This document shows positions 4,417-24,979 of a stretch of 25,007 nucleotides of DNA, piece by piece. Made by a program: the position numbers and the translations under genes. Under the pieces are notes generated by a model. The model was not told where the DNA came from. It searched no databases and was given only the letters and a program-made list of their open reading frames with translations. The stretch lies in the IMG/VR virus record IMGVR_UViG_3300043772_002495, positions 1 to 25,007 of that record; one strand, given 5' to 3'. This stretch comes from a virus. Every line of letters begins with the position of its first letter. Positions within the stretch are counted from its first letter, which is position 1.

Positions 4417-7164
4417 ATGGCCCGTTACAAGCCGGTCGACTACGATCCGTTCGCGCCAGCTTCAAGCGGAGTCTCACTGAAGCCGGTCGATTACGATCCG
4501 TTTGCGCCACCGAAGAAAAAGAAGGAAGAGGGTGAAACCTCCTTCATTCGCGATGTGGGCGGCGCCGCTATTAGTGGCGTCGGTAGCCAAGTCATTGGTC
4601 TTCCGGGCGTCCTTTATGGTCTCGTTACCGGAGATATGGACAACATCTCCACGCGCGCTGGCAAAGCCGTTGAGAAGTTCGGCGAGGAGCTCCAGACGGA
4701 GGCTTTCCGTGAACGCCAGCGCCAGCAGACAGAGCGCGTGGAAAAGGCCGGGAAGGAAGGCTTCCTCTCCGGTTTTGGGCAGCAGGCCAAAGAACTACTG
4801 ACCGATCCTCTGTCGCTGGCTGCTGGCGTTGCTCAGACACTCCCTGCGTTAGTTGGTACAGGCGGCGCCGGTCTCGCGGGACGTGCTGCTGCCACTGCTC
4901 TGGCTAGAAACCAGATAGCGAGGGAAGCGACTGTCGAAGCGGCGAAACAGGCTGCAAGGCGCGCGGCCAATCGCGGCGCTGTTGTTGGCACTTCAGCTGG
5001 TGGTAGCGCGCTCGTTGCCGGCGATGCTGCGCAGTCAACGTATGAGCGTGTGAAGCAAATGCCGGCAGAAGTTGTCGAGCGTTCGGAAGTGTATCAGGCT
5101 GCCCTTGCGGAAGGTTTGACGCCTGAAGAAGCTCGTGAATCTGCCGCTGTTTCTGCCGCCCGCCGCGCTGCTGCCATCGCCGCCCCCATCGCGGCGGTTA
5201 CTGGACCACTTGGCCTTGAAGCATCGCTTCTCACTGGCGGCTTGCGTCGGGGTGTCATCCGTGGCGGCGCTGAGGGTCTTGCCCGAGAAGGTGGCCAAGA
5301 ACTTATTGAGGAAACCGGGCAGGGTCTTGCTGAAAATATTGGGGCGCAGGCCATTGATCCGAATGTCGCGCTGACGGAAGGGCTCGGTGCCCGTGGGGCG
5401 GCTGGCTTGATTCTTGGTGGGACGATGGGTGGCGTTGGCGGCGCTATAAGCGGGCTGCGGGGGCCTGAGGAAGAAGGCGCTCCCCCGCCCCCGCCACCGC
5501 CGCCCCCGCCTCCGCCTGCTAGTGAGGCAGCTGCACAGCCTCCGCCGCCTCCGCCGCCGCCGCCTGCTAACATGGGTGCGCTCTCGCAGGCGCTGGGCCC
5601 GGTTGGTGGGAAGATCACACTGCAGGAGCCCGGTGGTCCGCAGGAATACACGTATCAGGGCTTGGACGAGGACGGCAGCGTCCTATTGGTAGATCCCAAT
5701 GGCAATGTGTTTGCGGAAGATCCGGATCAGATCTCTGCGGCGATGAAGGCTGGCGTCGTTGAACCCAAGGACGGGCTTGGCGCTGTGGCGTTTGGCGCCG
5801 AGGATATTACGGAGGGGCTGCCGGCGGTTGAGGCCGAACCTGTTCTTACGCCCGTGACTGCTGCGGCGCCTGCCACTGCGCCCGCTACCACTGCGCCTGC
5901 AGTTGAATCGATTGCCGCGTTGGAGCAGATGCCGATTGACGAAGACGTTGGCCCTTACCTCCAAGAGTATTCGAAGTTCCGAACGGCTAAGCAGATTCTT
6001 GAAATCGAAGACAATGCCCGGGTTATCGCTGCTCAACGCGGCGCATCGAGCGTGTCAAGGAAGGACATATTTGAAGCGGGTATGGCGTTTGACGATGCGC
6101 TTTTCAAAGAGCCGTCCCCCGCTCCTGCGCGTGCGCGTGTGCCTGCGCCTGCTGCTGCACCGGCACCCGCTCCTGCGGCGGCTGTCGAGACCGCCCCGAC
6201 GCCCGCTGCGGCGCCTGCCGTTGCTGAGCCTGTGACCGAGCAAACGCTTCGGGATGCAGGGTTTACCAGTGGCGAGATTGCATCTTGGAGATCCGGGCAA
6301 GGATCCAAGGACTATGCAGAAAAAGCCGGTCGAGGCTTCATCTATCATAGAGGGGACTTTACCCCGGCCACCACGGAAAACGTGGCTGAAATCACCAGTC
6401 GCATTGAAGCGGACATTGCCAAGAATGCCGCAACCCGTGATCGTCTTATAGCGACAGACACGGGGAAGAGGACGGTTCTGGTTGGAGATGCTCGTCCGCA
6501 GCTTTTGTCAGAAAATCTCAAAGATCTTGAGACATCTGATAGCAAACTCAAGGCTCAGATTGAGGGCCTGAACCGTCAGCTTGAGCGCTCCAAAAGATAT
6601 GCCGCGCCTGCGGCTGTGACCGAAGAACAGCTTGCTCTCGAAGATGAGGAAGAGATCGACTACGACGAGCATCCACTCATGCAGGAGCATGAGGCTAAGT
6701 ACGACGAAGCCATCGAGGAGATCGGTAACGCCGAGTACATGAAGGAGTTGCGCAAGCTCGTTACCCGCTTCAAGCGGGAAGGGCTGATCGACGAAGACGA
6801 CGTTGTTGAAATCAACGAGCGCATTCTAGATGTGGAGAAGACCGAACGCCTCGAAGAGGGCATGGCCGCCCTTGAAGACGCCTTGAACAACCAGCGTGAT
6901 AACCAGCGTGACGACGTCGAGGAGCGCATCCGGGAAGAGGTGGAGAGCCGCTCGTCTCAGTCCGCCGTGGAGCCCGGGGATTTGCCCGCCACGGGAATTA
7001 CGCCCGCTATCGGAAAGTCAAAAACGCGCAATCAAATCAGCGAGATACTTAAATTCGGCAGCCCGGCTGATATGAAGGACGCTATTGCCGAGATTGAAAA
7101 GCCCGACGATAAGGTGATGAACGAACGCGCGAATCTGCAGAAACAGAACAGGGGCTGCGACTAA
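4417..7164 (+). CDS. Large phage virion protein, hydrophobic and proline-rich (possible DNA-ejection protein)
   Basis: The protein has 915 residues and AGAGGG lies six bases before the ATG. Residues 5-14 and 22-31 are two copies of KPVDYDPFAP. Several hydrophobic Gly/Ala segments follow (about 47-72, 130-155, 250-275 and 325-348) that could insert into a membrane. Next come two polyproline runs (12 and 9 prolines), an acidic region, an Ala/Pro-rich linker (about 565-605), and a charged coiled-coil C-terminal third with EDEEEIDYDEHP. The mix of membrane-active segments, extensible linkers and coiled coils fits a protein ejected with phage DNA. No lytic transglycosylase or protease motif is evident by eye. 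The stop overlaps the next start (TAATG), so it may form one functional unit with the 1011-aa protein. Function is inferred. Confidence 0.6.
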   Translation: MARYKPVDYDPFAPASSGVSLKPVDYDPFAPPKKKKEEGETSFIRDVGGAAISGVGSQVIGLPGVLYGLVTGDMDNISTRAGKAVEKFGEELQTEAFRERQRQQTERVEKAGKEGFLSGFGQQAKELLTDPLSLAAGVAQTLPALVGTGGAGLAGRAAATALARNQIAREATVEAAKQAARRAANRGAVVGTSAGGSALVAGDAAQSTYERVKQMPAEVVERSEVYQAALAEGLTPEEARESAAVSAARRAAAIAAPIAAVTGPLGLEASLLTGGLRRGVIRGGAEGLAREGGQELIEETGQGLAENIGAQAIDPNVALTEGLGARGAAGLILGGTMGGVGGAISGLRGPEEEGAPPPPPPPPPPPPASEAAAQPPPPPPPPPANMGALSQALGPVGGKITLQEPGGPQEYTYQGLDEDGSVLLVDPNGNVFAEDPDQISAAMKAGVVEPKDGLGAVAFGAEDITEGLPAVEAEPVLTPVTAAAPATAPATTAPAVESIAALEQMPIDEDVGPYLQEYSKFRTAKQILEIEDNARVIAAQRGASSVSRKDIFEAGMAFDDALFKEPSPAPARARVPAPAAAPAPAPAAAVETAPTPAAAPAVAEPVTEQTLRDAGFTSGEIASWRSGQGSKDYAEKAGRGFIYHRGDFTPATTENVAEITSRIEADIAKNAATRDRLIATDTGKRTVLVGDARPQLLSENLKDLETSDSKLKAQIEGLNRQLERSKRYAAPAAVTEEQLALEDEEEIDYDEHPLMQEHEAKYDEAIEEIGNAEYMKELRKLVTRFKREGLIDEDDVVEINERILDVEKTERLEEGMAALEDALNNQRDNQRDDVEERIREEVESRSSQSAVEPGDLPATGITPAIGKSKTRNQISEILKFGSPADMKDAIAEIEKPDDKVMNERANLQKQNRGCD
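4429..4509 (+). repeat. Duplicated N-terminal motif KPVDYDPFAP
   Basis: Two 30-bp units at 4429-4458 and 4480-4509 encode the same ten residues and differ at only two bases, both silent. They are separated by seven codons. Similar PVDxDPF motifs occur, as far as I recall, near the N-termini of other large phage virion proteins, so this may be a docking or packaging signal. That role is inference. Confidence 0.85.
5482..5565 (+). repeat. Two polyproline runs (12 and 9 residues)
   Basis: Codons at 5482-5517 encode twelve prolines and codons at 5539-5565 encode nine, separated by ASEAAAQ. Codon choice is mixed (ccc, ccg, cca, cct), so this is not simple trinucleotide slippage and is probably kept at the protein level. 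It joins the hydrophobic N-terminal third to the rest of the protein as a stiff extended linker. Confidence 0.9.
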
Positions 7165-10511: not shown

Positions 10512-11552
10512 TCAGTTAAACAGTTTGCGCAGCTTCGAGGCGCCACGCGGTGCCATTAGTTCGGCTTCATCGAGATAGCCGTTGTGTAGTTCACGCCACT
10601 CGCTGCGCTCTTCCGGTGTCAGCTTCGCGACGATGTCGTATGCGGCCTCGCACCATTCATCCCAATCGACCATGTCGCCTTCTTCCTGCGGCTCCAGAAT
10701 GTCGATGTGGAGTTCCTTCTTCTGGCGCGGTGCTGCCGTTGTCTTGGCAGCCAGCTTCTCTTCGAGGCTCTGCACCTGCACTTCTGCAGCTGGAGTTTCC
10801 TCGAAGTCCGTGATGTCGACTTCGCTGCCGGCATACTCGTCAGCTTCGACCACGCCTTCCGCCTGATTGTCCACGGCCACAGCGCGCTGCGCTTCGGTCG
10901 AGAGCGGCATGTACTTGCTGGCCCGGCGGACCACGGTCTTGCGCCACATCTCGGCTTCGTCCGTCTTCCACGGGCCGACGATGTTGCCGTCCTTAGTCTT
11001 GGCCGATGAGCGATCACGGATGGCAAGGATCTGTTCCTTGCTCATCACCTCGAACTGGGTCTCGCCGTTCTTCAGCTTCCACACGCAGTAGGCACCGACC
11101 ATCGCGCCGCGGTTGGACAGGCCGTGCTTGTGGACGATGCTGGAGTCCAGACCTTCTACAACCTCGAACAGATCGTTCTCGTGAACCAGCCGGCTCTCGA
11201 TCTTCAGCACCTCACCCGACTGCATGGCCAGCTTCATCAGGCCCTTATAGCGGGGCCGGAATTGCGCCACGTTCTTCTTCAGGCGGCCATCCCACACCTT
11301 CAGGATGTCTGCCTCACCCATGTTCTTGTTGAGGCTCAGGCCCAGTTCTGCGGCGCTCAGGCACGCCTTCAGCAGCGAGCCTCGGTCGCAGTCCAACAGG
11401 TCCATGTTGTCCGCCACAGCGGCGACGACGATGCCTTGGAACTTATCGACGGTCATGGCCTGCGGAAGCAGGCTGCGCAGGTGGCTCTCGCGCATGGCGA
11501 GCTCCTGCTTGAACCGGTCCATCGGTTTGGCCGGGAGGTTACTTGTTGACAT
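10512..11552 (-). CDS. recT: RecT-type single-strand annealing protein
   Basis: The protein has 346 residues. The RecT core covers about 12-235: an N-terminal helix with LRSLLPQAM, then LLKACLSAAELGLSLN, then FRPRYKGLMKLAMQSG (98-113), then EMWRKTVVRRASKYMPLS (201-218), all hallmark RecT segments. It pairs complementary single strands after exonuclease resection. E. coli Rac RecT is about 269 residues; the extra C-terminal part here is an acidic linker plus a helical segment (about 295-346, WDEWCEAAYDIV). The start overlaps the end of the small upstream gene by 14 bases. With the YqaJ-type exonuclease gene upstream and the SSB-like gene downstream it forms a full annealing recombination module. 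Confidence 0.93.
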   Translation of the reverse strand: MSTSNLPAKPMDRFKQELAMRESHLRSLLPQAMTVDKFQGIVVAAVADNMDLLDCDRGSLLKACLSAAELGLSLNKNMGEADILKVWDGRLKKNVAQFRPRYKGLMKLAMQSGEVLKIESRLVHENDLFEVVEGLDSSIVHKHGLSNRGAMVGAYCVWKLKNGETQFEVMSKEQILAIRDRSSAKTKDGNIVGPWKTDEAEMWRKTVVRRASKYMPLSTEAQRAVAVDNQAEGVVEADEYAGSEVDITDFEETPAAEVQVQSLEEKLAAKTTAAPRQKKELHIDILEPQEEGDMVDWDEWCEAAYDIVAKLTPEERSEWRELHNGYLDEAELMAPRGASKLRKLFN

Positions 11553-21356: not shown

Positions 21357-21776
21357 TCACTCCGTCACAGTGGTAAAGCTGCTCGTCGGTATCAGCACCA
21401 CGCGCTCGACATCGCGGCTGTCGTCCCGGTCATAGCGGCCCCCGGTGGATACCGTGTGTTCGACAGGCACCTGAACGATGCCAAGCTCATCCGTCCACTG
21501 CACCGCCAGCAGCGCGTCAGCGCCCCTCGCGTCGATGGCGCAGAGCGCATTGTATTTATGCTCACTCAGCAGATAGGTTTCGTATCGCGCGCGCTCATTC
21601 CTACGCACTTTGATCTCGACGACACAGGGGCGCGGCTGGCGGCGGAACACAGCATCGTATGAAGCGAACGGATCTCGCGGCGCAGTGGCAGGCAGCCCGA
21701 AGGCGCGCTCCAGCTTGGCGATGACGCCCGCCTGATTGGCGCGATCCGCATCGCTTTCGTAGACGGGTCGCGTCAT
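21357..21776 (-). CDS. Candidate PD-(D/E)XK-like nuclease-fold protein
   Basis: The protein has 139 residues with ATGA overlaps on both sides. It begins with a helix (ANQAGVIAKLERAFG), then SYDAVFRR with D41, then CVVEIKVRRN with E54 and K56, then YETYLLSEHKYNAL. This order (helix, D, then ExK in a strand, then a helix with a lysine) is the pattern of PD-(D/E)XK nuclease folds. The C-terminal part has VQVPVEHTV and a strand. A third nuclease-like gene in this cluster would suit a phage that processes DNA ends or branches, or degrades host DNA. The match is by motif only and the fold is unproven. Confidence 0.6.
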   Translation of the reverse strand: MTRPVYESDADRANQAGVIAKLERAFGLPATAPRDPFASYDAVFRRQPRPCVVEIKVRRNERARYETYLLSEHKYNALCAIDARGADALLAVQWTDELGIVQVPVEHTVSTGGRYDRDDSRDVERVVLIPTSSFTTVTE

Positions 21777-22253: not shown

Positions 22254-22307
22254 ATTAATCCGCCAGTAACTCGCCATTAATTCGCCGCGCCTCGAAATTA
22301 ATCCGCC
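22254..22307. repeat. Three 11-bp ATTAAT-containing direct repeats, about 21 bp apart
   Basis: The + strand reads ATTAATCCGCC at 22254-22264, ATTAATTCGCC at 22276-22286 and ATTAATCCGCC at 22297-22307. Start-to-start distances are 22 and 21 bases, close to two turns of the helix. ATTAAT is itself a perfect palindrome. The first two copies are in the 72-base gap between genes, the third runs into the end of the gene stopping at 22298. Spacing and position fit an operator for the helix-turn-helix gene starting at 22225, or an iteron-like array. A 20-codon frame (22277-22215) in the gap is probably spurious. Confidence 0.65.
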
Positions 22308-22480
22308 GCGCCTTCGCAGATAAGATCGGCAACGGTTGCGCCGTCGAACCAATAGTTATTGATGGCGTCCATCGCGCCTTTGACCCGCTCACCAGCCGCC
22401 ATGCGAATCTTCAGCGCCTCATTCAGCGCGGCCAGTTCGCCTGTGGTGTAAACGTAATCGGTGTTGTCGTGCGTGAACAT
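22298..22480 (-). CDS. Small phage protein of unknown function
   Basis: I choose the ATG at 22480 (60 residues), sharing one base with the previous stop (TGATG) and having GAGG seven bases upstream. It begins MFTHDNTDYVYTTGELAALNEALKIRM and has helical ERVKGAMDAINNYWFDGATVADL. No family is recognised. Its final bases carry the third ATTAAT box, so any constraint on that box would also affect the last codons. Confidence 0.55.
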   Translation of the reverse strand: MFTHDNTDYVYTTGELAALNEALKIRMAAGERVKGAMDAINNYWFDGATVADLICEGAAD

Positions 22481-22671
22481 CACTCCACCTCATACGTGTC
22501 GAACGGTGCGCCGCAGGCTTGCTCCCAGCCACCATGCGCTTCCTCTGCATCTAGTTGAGCGATGCGCCGCAGCAGTGCCGCCCTGAACATCTCAGGCGTC
22601 ACGTCCAACCCCTCTGGGTCATTGCTCACGACACTGAACGCCAATTCATAGGCGTGATTATAGCGCTTCAT
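22480..22671 (-). CDS. Small conserved phage protein
   Basis: I choose the ATG at 22671 (63 residues; TGATG overlap, GGGAG upstream). The sequence runs MKRYNHAYELAFSVVSNDPEG, then VTPEMFRAALLRRIAQLDAEE and ends PFDTYEVE. This 'F.V.ND.EG..VT...L..AL..RI..L ... CG.PFDTYE' pattern is one I recall from many small phage proteins in early gene clusters. No function is known to me. Confidence 0.65.
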   Translation of the reverse strand: MKRYNHAYELAFSVVSNDPEGLDVTPEMFRAALLRRIAQLDAEEAHGGWEQACGAPFDTYEVE

Positions 22672-22832
22672 CACTCTGCTCCCTCTGCCCTGTTAATCAT
22701 CTGCTGCACGTCATACAGCAGCCGCGCCGCGCTATTCGGCTCCATGCCGCCATAGCCGTCAGATTCGTAATCGGCATACCGATCCAGAAATTCCGCGCAC
22801 TCGGCCAGCATGTCCAGTATCTCGGCCATCAT
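22671..22832 (-). CDS. Small acidic helical phage protein
   Basis: I choose the ATG at 22832 (53 residues); it makes an ATGA overlap with the preceding gene and has GAGGG upstream. The longer reading has no support. It is acidic and helical: MAEILDMLAECAEFLDRYADYES, then a YGGMEPNSAARLLYDVQQMI segment. It resembles small phage proteins with 'D..YG...PN.A..L...'. Function unknown. Confidence 0.55.
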   Translation of the reverse strand: MMAEILDMLAECAEFLDRYADYESDGYGGMEPNSAARLLYDVQQMINRAEGAE

Positions 22833-23014
22833 GATACAGCCCTCATTTCCACACAATCCATCGACAGCTTGCCCATGAACCGCTTGAACCCGCGCACCCG
22901 CTCCCGAACAATGTCCAGAGCATGGCTGTGGTCAACGGCGCTCACAACCCGGCGGCAGGACGCCATGTGGCCCGTCCATGTCGCGTAGTGAGCGGTGACG
23001 ATAAACGTCATCAT
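22829..23014 (-). CDS. Small phage protein of unknown function
   Basis: I choose the ATG at 23014 (61 residues), which makes an ATGA overlap with the upstream 52-aa gene and follows GGGAGCGG. The protein begins MMTFIVTAHYATWTGHMASC, then SHALDIVRERVRGFKRFMGK and ends DCVEMRAVS. The strand-helix-strand order suggests a small alpha/beta domain. No family recognised. Confidence 0.55.
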   Translation of the reverse strand: MMTFIVTAHYATWTGHMASCRRVVSAVDHSHALDIVRERVRGFKRFMGKLSMDCVEMRAVS

Positions 23015-23169
23015 TTCCGCCGCTCCCTCTCCAGCCGCGACCACCGCGCCAGCGCCTCACGCGCCACCTGCGCGGCCTCGTCACGCACCCGGCGGGCATG
23101 AACCCACCGCGCCCGCTCCTGCTCCGCAATCGCCGCATCCAGCGCGGCCAGTGCTTGCTGTCCCGTCAT
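23011..23169 (-). CDS. 52-aa charged helical protein
   Basis: The frame gives 52 residues from the ATG at 23169, with ATGA overlaps at both ends. It is one long, strongly charged helix: MTGQQALAALDAAIAEQERAR, then VRDEAAQVAREALARWSRLERERRK. Coiled-coil association is likely. The start context TGAAATGACG is shared with the next two genes upstream. The function is unknown. Confidence 0.6.
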   Translation of the reverse strand: MTGQQALAALDAAIAEQERARWVHARRVRDEAAQVAREALARWSRLERERRK

Positions 23170-23486
23170 TTCATCGTTCCTTTTATAAGGCCCATCGGCG
23201 TCATCGACATCGCCCGCTCGTAGGCGTTTTTCTTCTTCACCGCCGATTTAAACTGCTGCTCCCTCAGCCACAAAAGCTCCTCCAGCACCTCCAGCATGTC
23301 AGGCGCGGCAGCGATCAATCGCGCATTCGCATCTGCGGTCTGCGCGTCCCAATCTTTCTCCATTGTGCAGACTGGCAGCCAGCGTGCCTCGCCATCAGGC
23401 CCCGGCTCGCACAGCGCCTCAACCCCTTTCTTGATCCCGAACCCCTTGCGGGTAACGAACCACGGCCCCGGCGTGTGTCCCGTCAT
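23166..23486 (-). CDS. HTPGPW-type phage protein (copy 1)
   Basis: I choose the ATG at 23486 (106 residues), inside a 24-bp sequence also found 272 bases upstream; GGGGG precedes it. The protein begins MTGHTPGPWFVTRKGFG, a signature of a large family of small phage proteins, and has TADANARLIAAAPDMLEVLEEL, also typical. The rest is helical and basic (FKSAVKKKNAYERAM). It is a paralogue of the gene at 23755-24051, with which it shares near-identical DNA at two places. I know no assigned function for the HTPGPW family. Confidence 0.75.
   Translation of the reverse strand: MTGHTPGPWFVTRKGFGIKKGVEALCEPGPDGEARWLPVCTMEKDWDAQTADANARLIAAAPDMLEVLEELLWLREQQFKSAVKKKNAYERAMSMTPMGLIKGTMK
23292..23317. 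repeat. 26-bp direct repeat shared by HTPGPW paralogues (copy 1)
   Basis: This 26-bp stretch is identical to 23872-23897 and encodes the LIAAAPDML segment in both HTPGPW genes. With two differences the match extends left to 23282. A second block of 20 bp, encoding the HTPGPWF region, is shared at 23458-23477 and 24020-24039. It shows that the two genes are paralogues or have exchanged sequence. Confidence 0.85.
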
Positions 23487-23504
23487 TTCAATTCCCCCTT
23501 CGCA
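23481..23504. repeat. 24-bp direct repeat at gene junction (copy 1)
   Basis: Identical to 23753-23776. On the coding strand it contains the end codons for KGELK, a GGGGG ribosome site and the ATGA stop/start junction. The two copies bracket one 91-aa gene exactly, start to start. Confidence 0.9.
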
Positions 23505-23758
23505 TTCGCGATTTGCCAGCGAGCATCGTCCTGAAGAATTTCGTCTCGCACGTCCCAAGACGGTGAGTCCCTTAACGCGCCATGCCTCTCAACCAGATGC
23601 TCCAGTGTGGCCAATATCCGCAGCGTCGTATCCGCCGCCCGCCTCAGATCGTGCATCACCTCGCGCATGTGCGAGCCAGCCGGGGCCTCCAGCGCATCCG
23701 CTGCATAGGCCAGTGAACCAGCCGCAGCGACCAGCGTTTCCATCACACCCTTCGTCAT
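23483..23758 (-). CDS. Small phage protein bracketed by direct repeats
   Basis: I choose the ATG at 23758 (91 residues), within the second copy of a 24-bp repeat; the upstream extension is implausible. The protein is helical: MTKGVMETLVAAAGSLAYAADALEAP, then MREVMHDLRRAADTTLRILATLEHLVERHG, and ends in IANAKGELK. The last residues are shared with the HTPGPW gene upstream (ASAKGELK) because of the repeat. Exact loss or gain of this gene by recombination between the repeats would leave both junctions intact. Function unknown. Confidence 0.65.
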   Translation of the reverse strand: MTKGVMETLVAAAGSLAYAADALEAPAGSHMREVMHDLRRAADTTLRILATLEHLVERHGALRDSPSWDVRDEILQDDARWQIANAKGELK

Positions 23759-23776
23759 TTCAATTCCCCCTTCGCA
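23753..23776. repeat. 24-bp direct repeat at gene junction (copy 2)
   Basis: Identical to 23481-23504. It covers the last codons of the upstream HTPGPW gene, the ribosome site and the start of the 91-aa gene. A shorter part of the same junction (TGAAATGACG) recurs at the start of the 52-aa gene near 23169. Confidence 0.9.
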
Positions 23777-24051
23777 CTCGCTATCACTGACGCAATCGCC
23801 GCCAGCACTTCGTCGTCTTCGCTCTCGAAGTTCGACGCCTCCAGACAATCACACGCAACCTCCAGCATCTTCAGCATGTCAGGCGCGGCAGCGATCAGGT
23901 GGGCATTCGCCATCGCCGTTGCATCGTCATGCAAGCCGCCCTGCCCAAACAGGTGTGCGTTCGTCGTGCAGATATCCGCGACAGTCTCGCTCTCAATTTC
24001 CACCTGATACCCGACCGCAAACCACGGCCCCGGCGTGTGCCGCGCTCTCAT
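23755..24051 (-). CDS. HTPGPW-type phage protein (copy 2)
   Basis: The protein has 98 residues from the ATG at 24051 (CAGGGAGC upstream, ATGA overlap with the gene before). It begins MRARHTPGPWFAVGYQVEIES and has TAMANAHLIAAAPDMLKMLEVACDCLE, the same two signatures as the gene at 23166-23486. The middle portions differ, as expected for old paralogues that still share conserved DNA blocks. The C-terminus ASAKGELK is shared with the bracketed gene downstream. The function is unknown. Confidence 0.75.
   Translation of the reverse strand: MRARHTPGPWFAVGYQVEIESETVADICTTNAHLFGQGGLHDDATAMANAHLIAAAPDMLKMLEVACDCLEASNFESEDDEVLAAIASVIASAKGELK
23872..23897. repeat. 26-bp direct repeat shared by HTPGPW paralogues (copy 2)
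   Basis: Identical to 23292-23317, 580 bases apart. See copy 1: it encodes the LIAAAPDML segment in the second paralogue. Confidence 0.85.
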
Positions 24052-24302
24052 GCTCCCTGCTCCCTGATAGCAACCGCCTCGGCGACAATCTCAGCCGCCA
24101 TGACGTGCAGCGTGTTCAGCCGGTCATAGTGCGCGTTGCGATCGATAGTGCAGCGGTCAATGTCGCCCGGATAATCCCGGCCATGCGGCGTCACCTGCTG
24201 CAACGCCTTGATGGCGTCCTGCACGGCGTCATAGGCGGCGATGCGCGGGTCGATCAAATCGCTGGCGCTGCTGCCGTTGTGGTTCAATGTGGGTGTGATC
24301 AT
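24048..24302 (-). CDS. Small phage protein of unknown function
   Basis: I choose the ATG at 24302 (84 residues), eight bases after GGAG; it lies 5 bases after the stop of the first gene of the block. The protein begins MITPTLNHNGSSASDLIDPR and has DAVQDAIKALQQVTPHGRDY, then helical HYDRLNTLHVMAAEIVAEAVA. The pattern 'LNHNG.S...L.......A...A...L....PHGRDY' recurs in small phage early proteins, as far as I recall. No function is known to me. Confidence 0.65.
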   Translation of the reverse strand: MITPTLNHNGSSASDLIDPRIAAYDAVQDAIKALQQVTPHGRDYPGDIDRCTIDRNAHYDRLNTLHVMAAEIVAEAVAIREQGA

Positions 24303-24307
24303 GCCCT

Positions 24308-24655
24308 TCACTCCGGATAGAAACACAGGTCGAAACTGTAGTGCGGCTCCGCAAAGATACCGCACTGGCACAGCGCCTCACTCGCCACGATGGCCCATTC
24401 ATACGGGCCAGCCTCGAACGATACGCGCCAGCTGTCGCCTTCCTGCCGGATGAAGCATTCCTTGTCCGGGTTGCAGCCGATAGCAGCCGCAAACTTGCAC
24501 ATCGCCTTATAGGCAGCCTCAGCCTGACCCTTGCAGCTTTTGCGCTTGCTCGCAGCCAGCGCCACCCACTCGGCAATCAGCGCCGCGCCGTCGCCGTAAT
24601 AATAGCCCTCACCCTTGCGGGCGTAGTCTAGGTTCAACTTCTTGCCAACAGACAT
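24308..24655 (-). CDS. Small phage protein, first gene of the leftward block
   Basis: The protein has 115 residues, with GAGGGAGA upstream of the ATG at 24655. It begins MSVGKKLNLDYARKGEGYYY, then AALIAEWVALAASKRKSCKGQ, then FEAGPYEWAIVASEAL and ends EPHYSFDLCFYPE. The PYEWAIVAS and YSFDLCFYP segments are ones I recall from a widespread phage protein family of unknown function. Five cysteines are scattered. It opens the leftward run, right after the gene-poor control region. Confidence 0.7.
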   Translation of the reverse strand: MSVGKKLNLDYARKGEGYYYGDGAALIAEWVALAASKRKSCKGQAEAAYKAMCKFAAAIGCNPDKECFIRQEGDSWRVSFEAGPYEWAIVASEALCQCGIFAEPHYSFDLCFYPE

Positions 24656-24833: not shown

Positions 24834-24979
24834 TGAAACAAAATGTCACGGGCCAAGTCCCTGAAACCAAACGATAAAACAGCGTTTTGAAACGGGTGAA
24901 ACGCCCCTGTTACGGTTGGCTGTTTCACTCCAAGGCACTGATAACATTACCGAAATCGGGGCAAAAATCGAAATGAAAC
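24834..24979. repeat. Cluster of TGAAAC boxes
   Basis: TGAAAC occurs on the + strand at 24834, 24862, 24888, 24897 and 24974, and inverted (GTTTCA) at 24922-24927. Six copies in about 146 bases is well above chance for a hexamer. Spacing between the first three is 28 and 26 bases. They may be sites for a repressor or an initiator. Confidence 0.6.
24896..24928. promoter_or_regulatory. Operator-like dyad GTGAAAC...GTTTCAC
   Basis: A perfect 7-bp inverted repeat (24896-24902 and 24922-24928) with 19 bases between arms, formed from two of the TGAAAC boxes. The arms overlap the rightward promoter candidate. It could be a repressor-binding dyad; hairpin formation is also possible. Confidence 0.5.

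Follow-up and report, generated by a model that had tools for sequence, protein, structure and literature searches.

Gain, loss and exchange of small genes at stop/start junctions in an ATGA-coupled array of uncultured phages

Comparison of a virus record with related IMG/VR phages shows, at the level of sequence, that an array of small genes changes through the gain, loss or replacement of single genes or pairs at their stop/start junctions. On balance, the array is probably a fast-changing operon in which gene units are exchanged at ATG(A), shared tails in its core aiding annealing. The window analysed here is the complete virus record of 25,007 bases; the array genes lie on its minus strand. 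The genes considered, together with a conserved anchor beyond the array, are:

24308..24655, minus strand: g115, 115 aa, where the array begins within the window; 83-94% identity in nine relatives over residues 7-115
24048..24302, minus strand: g83, 84 aa; ATG at 24302, ATGA overlap with A
23755..24051, minus strand: gene A, 98 aa (HTPGPW..LIAAAPDML); matches phrog_1273, E 1.4e-17; ATGA overlap with B
23483..23758, minus strand: gene B, 91 aa, the 'cassette'; apparent chimera of residues 1-47 and 48-91
23166..23486, minus strand: gene C, 106 aa, paralog of A; matches phrog_1273, E 8e-15
23011..23169, minus strand: gene D, 52 aa; comes after the variable stretch in nearly all relatives
22829..23014, minus strand: gene E, 61 aa; variably present between D and F
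22671..22832, minus strand: gene F, 53 aa
22480..22671, minus strand: gene G, 63 aa; variably present between F and H
22298..22480, minus strand: gene H, 60 aa; c28 stands in its place in some relatives
21357..21776, minus strand: gene J, 139 aa; Pfam PDDEXK_14; conserved anchor beyond the array

Some starts given by the gene caller are doubtful, and those of E and F may differ in part; the junctions of A, B, C and D were taken directly from the sequence. The Pfam entry matched by J, PDDEXK_14, is described as a putative phage endonuclease.

The preliminary description had drawn attention to B as a gene bracketed by 24-bp repeats that contain a ribosome site and a start, and this description holds. 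The sequence CGTCATTTCAATTCCCCCTTCGCA is present in two exact 24-nt copies spaced 272 nt apart; allowing 3 mismatches revealed no further site in the window, nor did dinucleotide-preserving shuffles produce any. Extended without gaps, the repeat reaches 32 nt at 94% identity. Read on the minus strand, each copy is TGCGAAGGGGGAATTGAA|ATGACG; it encodes the end of the upstream gene (..AKGELK*), the stop and start overlapping as ATGA, and contains a purine-rich ribosome site 7 nt 5′ of the ATG. For A|B and B|C alike, the predicted anti-SD pairing energy is –10.8 kcal/mol, against a background mean of –6.1 and a 5th percentile of –10.9. Recombination between the copies would drop exactly 272 bp while the ATGA junction stayed intact, in agreement with the proposal that the gene could be excised exactly with translation kept. 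A shorter form of the junction had also been noted at a third gene start near 23169: the 10-mer TGAAATGACG is indeed found at the start at C|D (23164-23173), the true shared stretch being the 15-nt repeat TGAAATGACGGGACA, identical at C|D and B|C. Taken alone, TGAAATGACG is within chance at up to 1 mismatch (3 found, 1.78 expected). The start ATGACG is common to B, C and D.

23753..23776, minus strand: 24-bp repeat, copy 1, A|B junction; last codons of A, ribosome site and ATGA
23481..23504, minus strand: 24-bp repeat, copy 2, B|C junction; last codons of B, ribosome site and ATGA
23476..23490, minus strand: 15-nt repeat TGAAATGACGGGACA at B|C, family D20
23159..23173, minus strand: 15-nt repeat TGAAATGACGGGACA at C|D, family D20; the joint in the C-less relative

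The genes that carry these repeats are partly related to one another. Both A and C match phrog_1273 in PHROGs (no Pfam family was found for either), and they have in common a 52-nt block that is 88% identical. B had no match in PHROGs, phrog_1273 included, and only sub-threshold scores in Pfam. Its residues 48-91 are 66% identical over 44 aa to the C-terminus of c97, a 66-aa gene of the relatives L084 and L031 that itself matches the C-terminal half of phrog_1273 (E 1e-4), and residues 1-57 match a separate family. B thus looks like a chimera of an N-terminal part from its own family and a phrog_1273-type tail.

23859..23910, minus strand: 52-nt block, copy in A, family D1
23279..23330, minus strand: 52-nt block, copy in C, family D1
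23483..23613, minus strand: 3′ half of B; 69% DNA identity over 131 nt to c97 of relative L084

Since A and C are paralogs and the C-terminal half of B is family-like, the 24-bp repeats may most simply be read as related gene tails plus the ATGACG start. In more distant relatives the g83 family is likewise located upstream of phrog_1273-type genes. Two apparent gene fusions were observed in relatives. In L077, gene c0 (105 aa) consists of an A gene fused directly after IAAAPEML to a c97-like C-terminus, which indicates that exchange takes place within genes too, at a conserved motif. In L078, D and c87 appear to be fused: a 250-aa gene that follows a B-family gene begins like D (ATGACGGGACAGCAGGCATTG) and then turns into c87-family sequence.

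Relatives were collected by scanning IMG/VR with the 24-mer, B, D, g115 and J, which yielded some 17 close relatives, surrounded by a ring of more distant ones. The 24-mer itself is present in five other IMG/VR records, at B|C in four of them and at B|D in one (L004; L004, L013 and L080 are the same contig). Among the related phages we distinguished 13 arrangements, of which two lack B, one lacks C and one lacks both: A is joined to C in L074 (3300045999_007246) and L076 (3300032093_001869), B to D in L080/L004, and A to D in L075 (3300037042_004997). The upstream neighbour of D can be C, B, A, c10 or c159. The comparison of related phages that the preliminary description had suggested therefore gave the expected outcome: B, C or both are missing in some of them, with breakpoints at these junctions.

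The joints in the B-less relatives consist of A joined to C with one tail, through the shorter TGAAATGACG and not the full 24 bp. Full 24-bp identity between A|B and B|C was seen in the window only, and the other B-carrying relatives share TGAAATGACG; the exact A|B junction of the window was likewise seen in the window alone. None of the IMG/VR records that contain the 24-mer shows the deletion product of the 24-bp repeats (272 bp shorter, A..TGCGAAGGGGGAATTGAA|ATGACGGGACAC..C). What sets the window apart is that its A tail equals the tail of B, whereas the A tails of relatives differ; the match suggests that the A tail of the window may have been acquired by a recent exchange or conversion.

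In these relatives the downstream 1 kb has 88-95% identity to the window; thus, gene content changes far faster than the neighbouring core. The core-gene tree is star-like, with 8 of 12 inner branches open, so gain and loss are not distinguishable on it and parsimony changes are rough. Misassembly is an unlikely source of the arrangements, four of which recur in differently numbered IMG/VR samples (L085/L086, L011/L012, L031/L084 and L014/L081). No cultured model was found for this group, since the array DNA had no match among cultured phages, tblastn with gene A returned one weak phage record, and primase relatives were all below 60% identity. A scan of genome contigs with C gave weak relatives only (32-45% identity). 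In L075 (4568-5197) a 209-aa gene with alanine-tryptophan-rich repeats (AAWDAARDAAWDAAR), resembling phrog_8332, is inserted between D and F.

We located breakpoints relative to start codons along the array. The 13 arrangements contain 145 junctions, 81 with a 4-nt overlap and 21 with a 1-nt overlap. When the same gene is followed by different genes, the last shared base falls within –10 to +10 of the ATG in 20 of 22 comparisons; when the same gene has different predecessors, the first shared base falls within –27 to 0 of the ATG in 36 of 37. This switching of flanks at the start codon is seen along the whole array, and cuts at junctions recur where E varies between D and F, where G varies between F and H, where c29 varies between g115 and c38, and in other cases. 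A distant clade has a cut of this kind too: L099 lacks a phrog_1273-type gene between c4 and c20, and the shared junction is only about 5 nt.

To what extent shared sequence accompanies these events was assessed in two ways. Tails of at least 14 identical nt across different gene families occur in 13 of 325 pairs, one of which (HT/c97, 30 nt) is a gene fusion and not independent; a null obtained by column permutation, which keeps the ribosome-site and start composition, gave a mean of 0.67 pairs and a maximum of 3, and two internal control regions gave 0. Tails of at least three unrelated types are seen repeatedly (GCGAAGGGRGA.., GAGCAGGGA.. and GATTGTCTG..). Junctions of the A-B-C-D core share 10-24 nt, as A and C are phrog_1273 paralogs and the C-terminal half of B is like theirs; elsewhere in the array 3-9 nt are usually shared. 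At a threshold of 9 nt, which was set after the data were seen, flanking junction identity is present in 7 of 28 one- or two-gene presence/absence variants versus 10 of 144 control pairs. Across in-register and register-free tests, flanking identity of variants is marginally greater than that of controls (Mann-Whitney P-values 0.055-0.07, neither below 0.05). The counts lend support to exchange that may be assisted by homology in the A-B-C-D core. With only 7 of 28 variants sharing at least 9 nt at the junction, homology is unlikely to be the sole driver of gain and loss, and many variants could reflect selection that keeps coupled genes intact. Of the junction-linked shuffling proposed at the outset, gain and loss at junctions is well supported for the whole array, whereas the product of the 24-bp repeats was not found and extended identity accompanies a minority of variants.

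It is possible, if on the unlikely side, that illegitimate recombination strikes at random positions and selection does the rest, the repeats being non-causal. With neighbouring genes overlapping by 4 nt, a cut anywhere but at ATGA would damage or uncouple them, so that all survivors would look junction-targeted. The 21 of 28 variants with less than 9 nt, mostly sharing ATG, ATGA or a few bases more, are consistent with this, as is the short junction of the distant replicate in L099. Gumball and Troll4, too, have discontinuities exactly at start codons, and many mosaic boundaries are without conserved boundary sequences (PMC3233612). Random cutting does not readily account for the A-B-C-D joints, which sit in shared stretches of 10-15 nt, for cross-family tails far above the composition-preserving null, or for the tail that A and one B-family gene have in common, similar across about the last 60 nt.

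In the reading of a fast-changing operon exchanged at ATG(A), the last codons of each array gene would carry the ribosome site of the next gene. A gene plus its tail would therefore be an interchangeable unit, and a cut at ATG(A) would give a new order that is still translated. Within the core, the shared tail most likely permits single-strand annealing, leading to precise deletion or insertion of B or C; outside the core, most of the sorting is probably due to selection against broken or uncoupled genes. The annealing agents may be the phage's own RecE/RecT-type pair or host enzymes. The window encodes both members of such a pair:

10512..11552, minus strand: RecT annealing protein, 346 aa
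11703..12641, minus strand: RecE-like recombination exonuclease, 312 aa; phrog_434, E 1.1e-47

Six relatives were found to carry RecT, at 95-99% identity; ten other records are shorter fragments with no match. Single-strand annealing by RecT and the RecE-like nuclease at these short junction repeats is plausible, judging from the genes present. A stronger version, in which the phages keep a standard joint of C-terminal tail, ribosome site and overlapping start on accessory genes that are otherwise unrelated, so that their own annealing recombinase can swap single genes with translation unbroken, would make the array an evolved, integrase-free cassette array; this we consider decidedly doubtful.

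That the repeats are a mere relic, duplicated phrog_1273-type tails kept by the coding of ribosome site and start with no ongoing exchange, appears very improbable. The paralogy of A and C, the resemblance of the C-terminal half of B to the same family and the good ribosome site within the repeat would all fit a relic, but the presence of B and C differs among relatives with joints inside these very tails, the A tail of the window departs from those of relatives and matches that of B, which suggests recent exchange or conversion, and the column-permuted null already retains ribosome-site and start composition. A dedicated site-specific recombinase would explain precise cuts at a repeated short sequence, yet it deserves next to no credence given at least three unrelated junction sequences and cuts that track the start codon with no fixed motif.

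The closest precedent is in the mycobacteriophages Island3 and Brujita: an 85-aa gene in Island3 (genes 67/68) shares its 3′ end with the upstream gene, and Brujita is without the small gene, its single copy of the shared 3′ sequence being recombinant (PMC3029335). Similarly, A and B share a tail, and L074 and L076 have A|C with a single tail. The precedent involves about 50-60 bp in one event between two genomes; here the shared stretches are 10-24 bp, the genes overlap by ATGA, at least three unrelated tail types are present, and the array has 28 variants. The array is an unusually rich case of a known mosaic process. A role of short conserved boundary sequences in phage mosaicism has been proposed (PMC3029335, PMC3233612), and the two rival models are set out in PMC3233612. 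As in the boundary-sequence model, short sequences at gene boundaries coincide here with module breakpoints; unlike in that model, the boundary is coding and translational, and at least 9 nt are shared in only about one variant in four.

In the older literature on lambdoid phages, junctions of the nin region act as exchange points. That region, as summarized in PMC8022706 from Kroger and Hobom 1982, holds tightly packed, variable small accessory genes linked by ATGA. The present array is likewise a run of small genes with ATGA overlaps that varies between phages, but its genes are other ones, in an unrelated group of uncultured phages, and no nin family was found in Pfam or PHROGs among the part of the array genes scanned. 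Phage Rad52-like recombinases join diverged phage sequences by relaxed homologous recombination (PMC3945230), and the phages studied here similarly encode RecT and a RecE-like nuclease. Cases described for such recombinases involve stretches of 300-980 bp with longest identical runs of 11-116 bp (PMC3945230), versus 10-24 bp in the array.

Whether short boundary sequences target recombination or random cutting is followed by selection is a decades-old argument about phage mosaicism. The array supplies 28 one- or two-gene variants with breakpoints mapped within a few bases in closely related genomes, and these, together with a 24-bp repeat that has a defined 272-bp product, make both models testable. 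Our observations also suggest that ATGA-coupled operons are easy to rearrange, each gene providing the ribosome site of the next.

Several other features of the window were noted. Upstream of the array, at 24834-24979, six GTTTCA/TGAAAC hexamers lie within about 150 bp (16 in the whole window); the block is conserved in 8 of 13 phages, window included, and was not found in the other five. The hexamers are possibly operators or iterons. At the record end (1-311) there is a 57-bp tandem repeat of 5.5 copies at 99%, in frame in a 703-aa ORF (STVRTDTNRGDAGNNVIPG units), which could be real or an assembly end effect. Positions 4417-7164 encode a 915-aa protein with partial resemblance to phage proteins of very large size whose annotations are virion RNA polymerase and DarB-like antirestriction.
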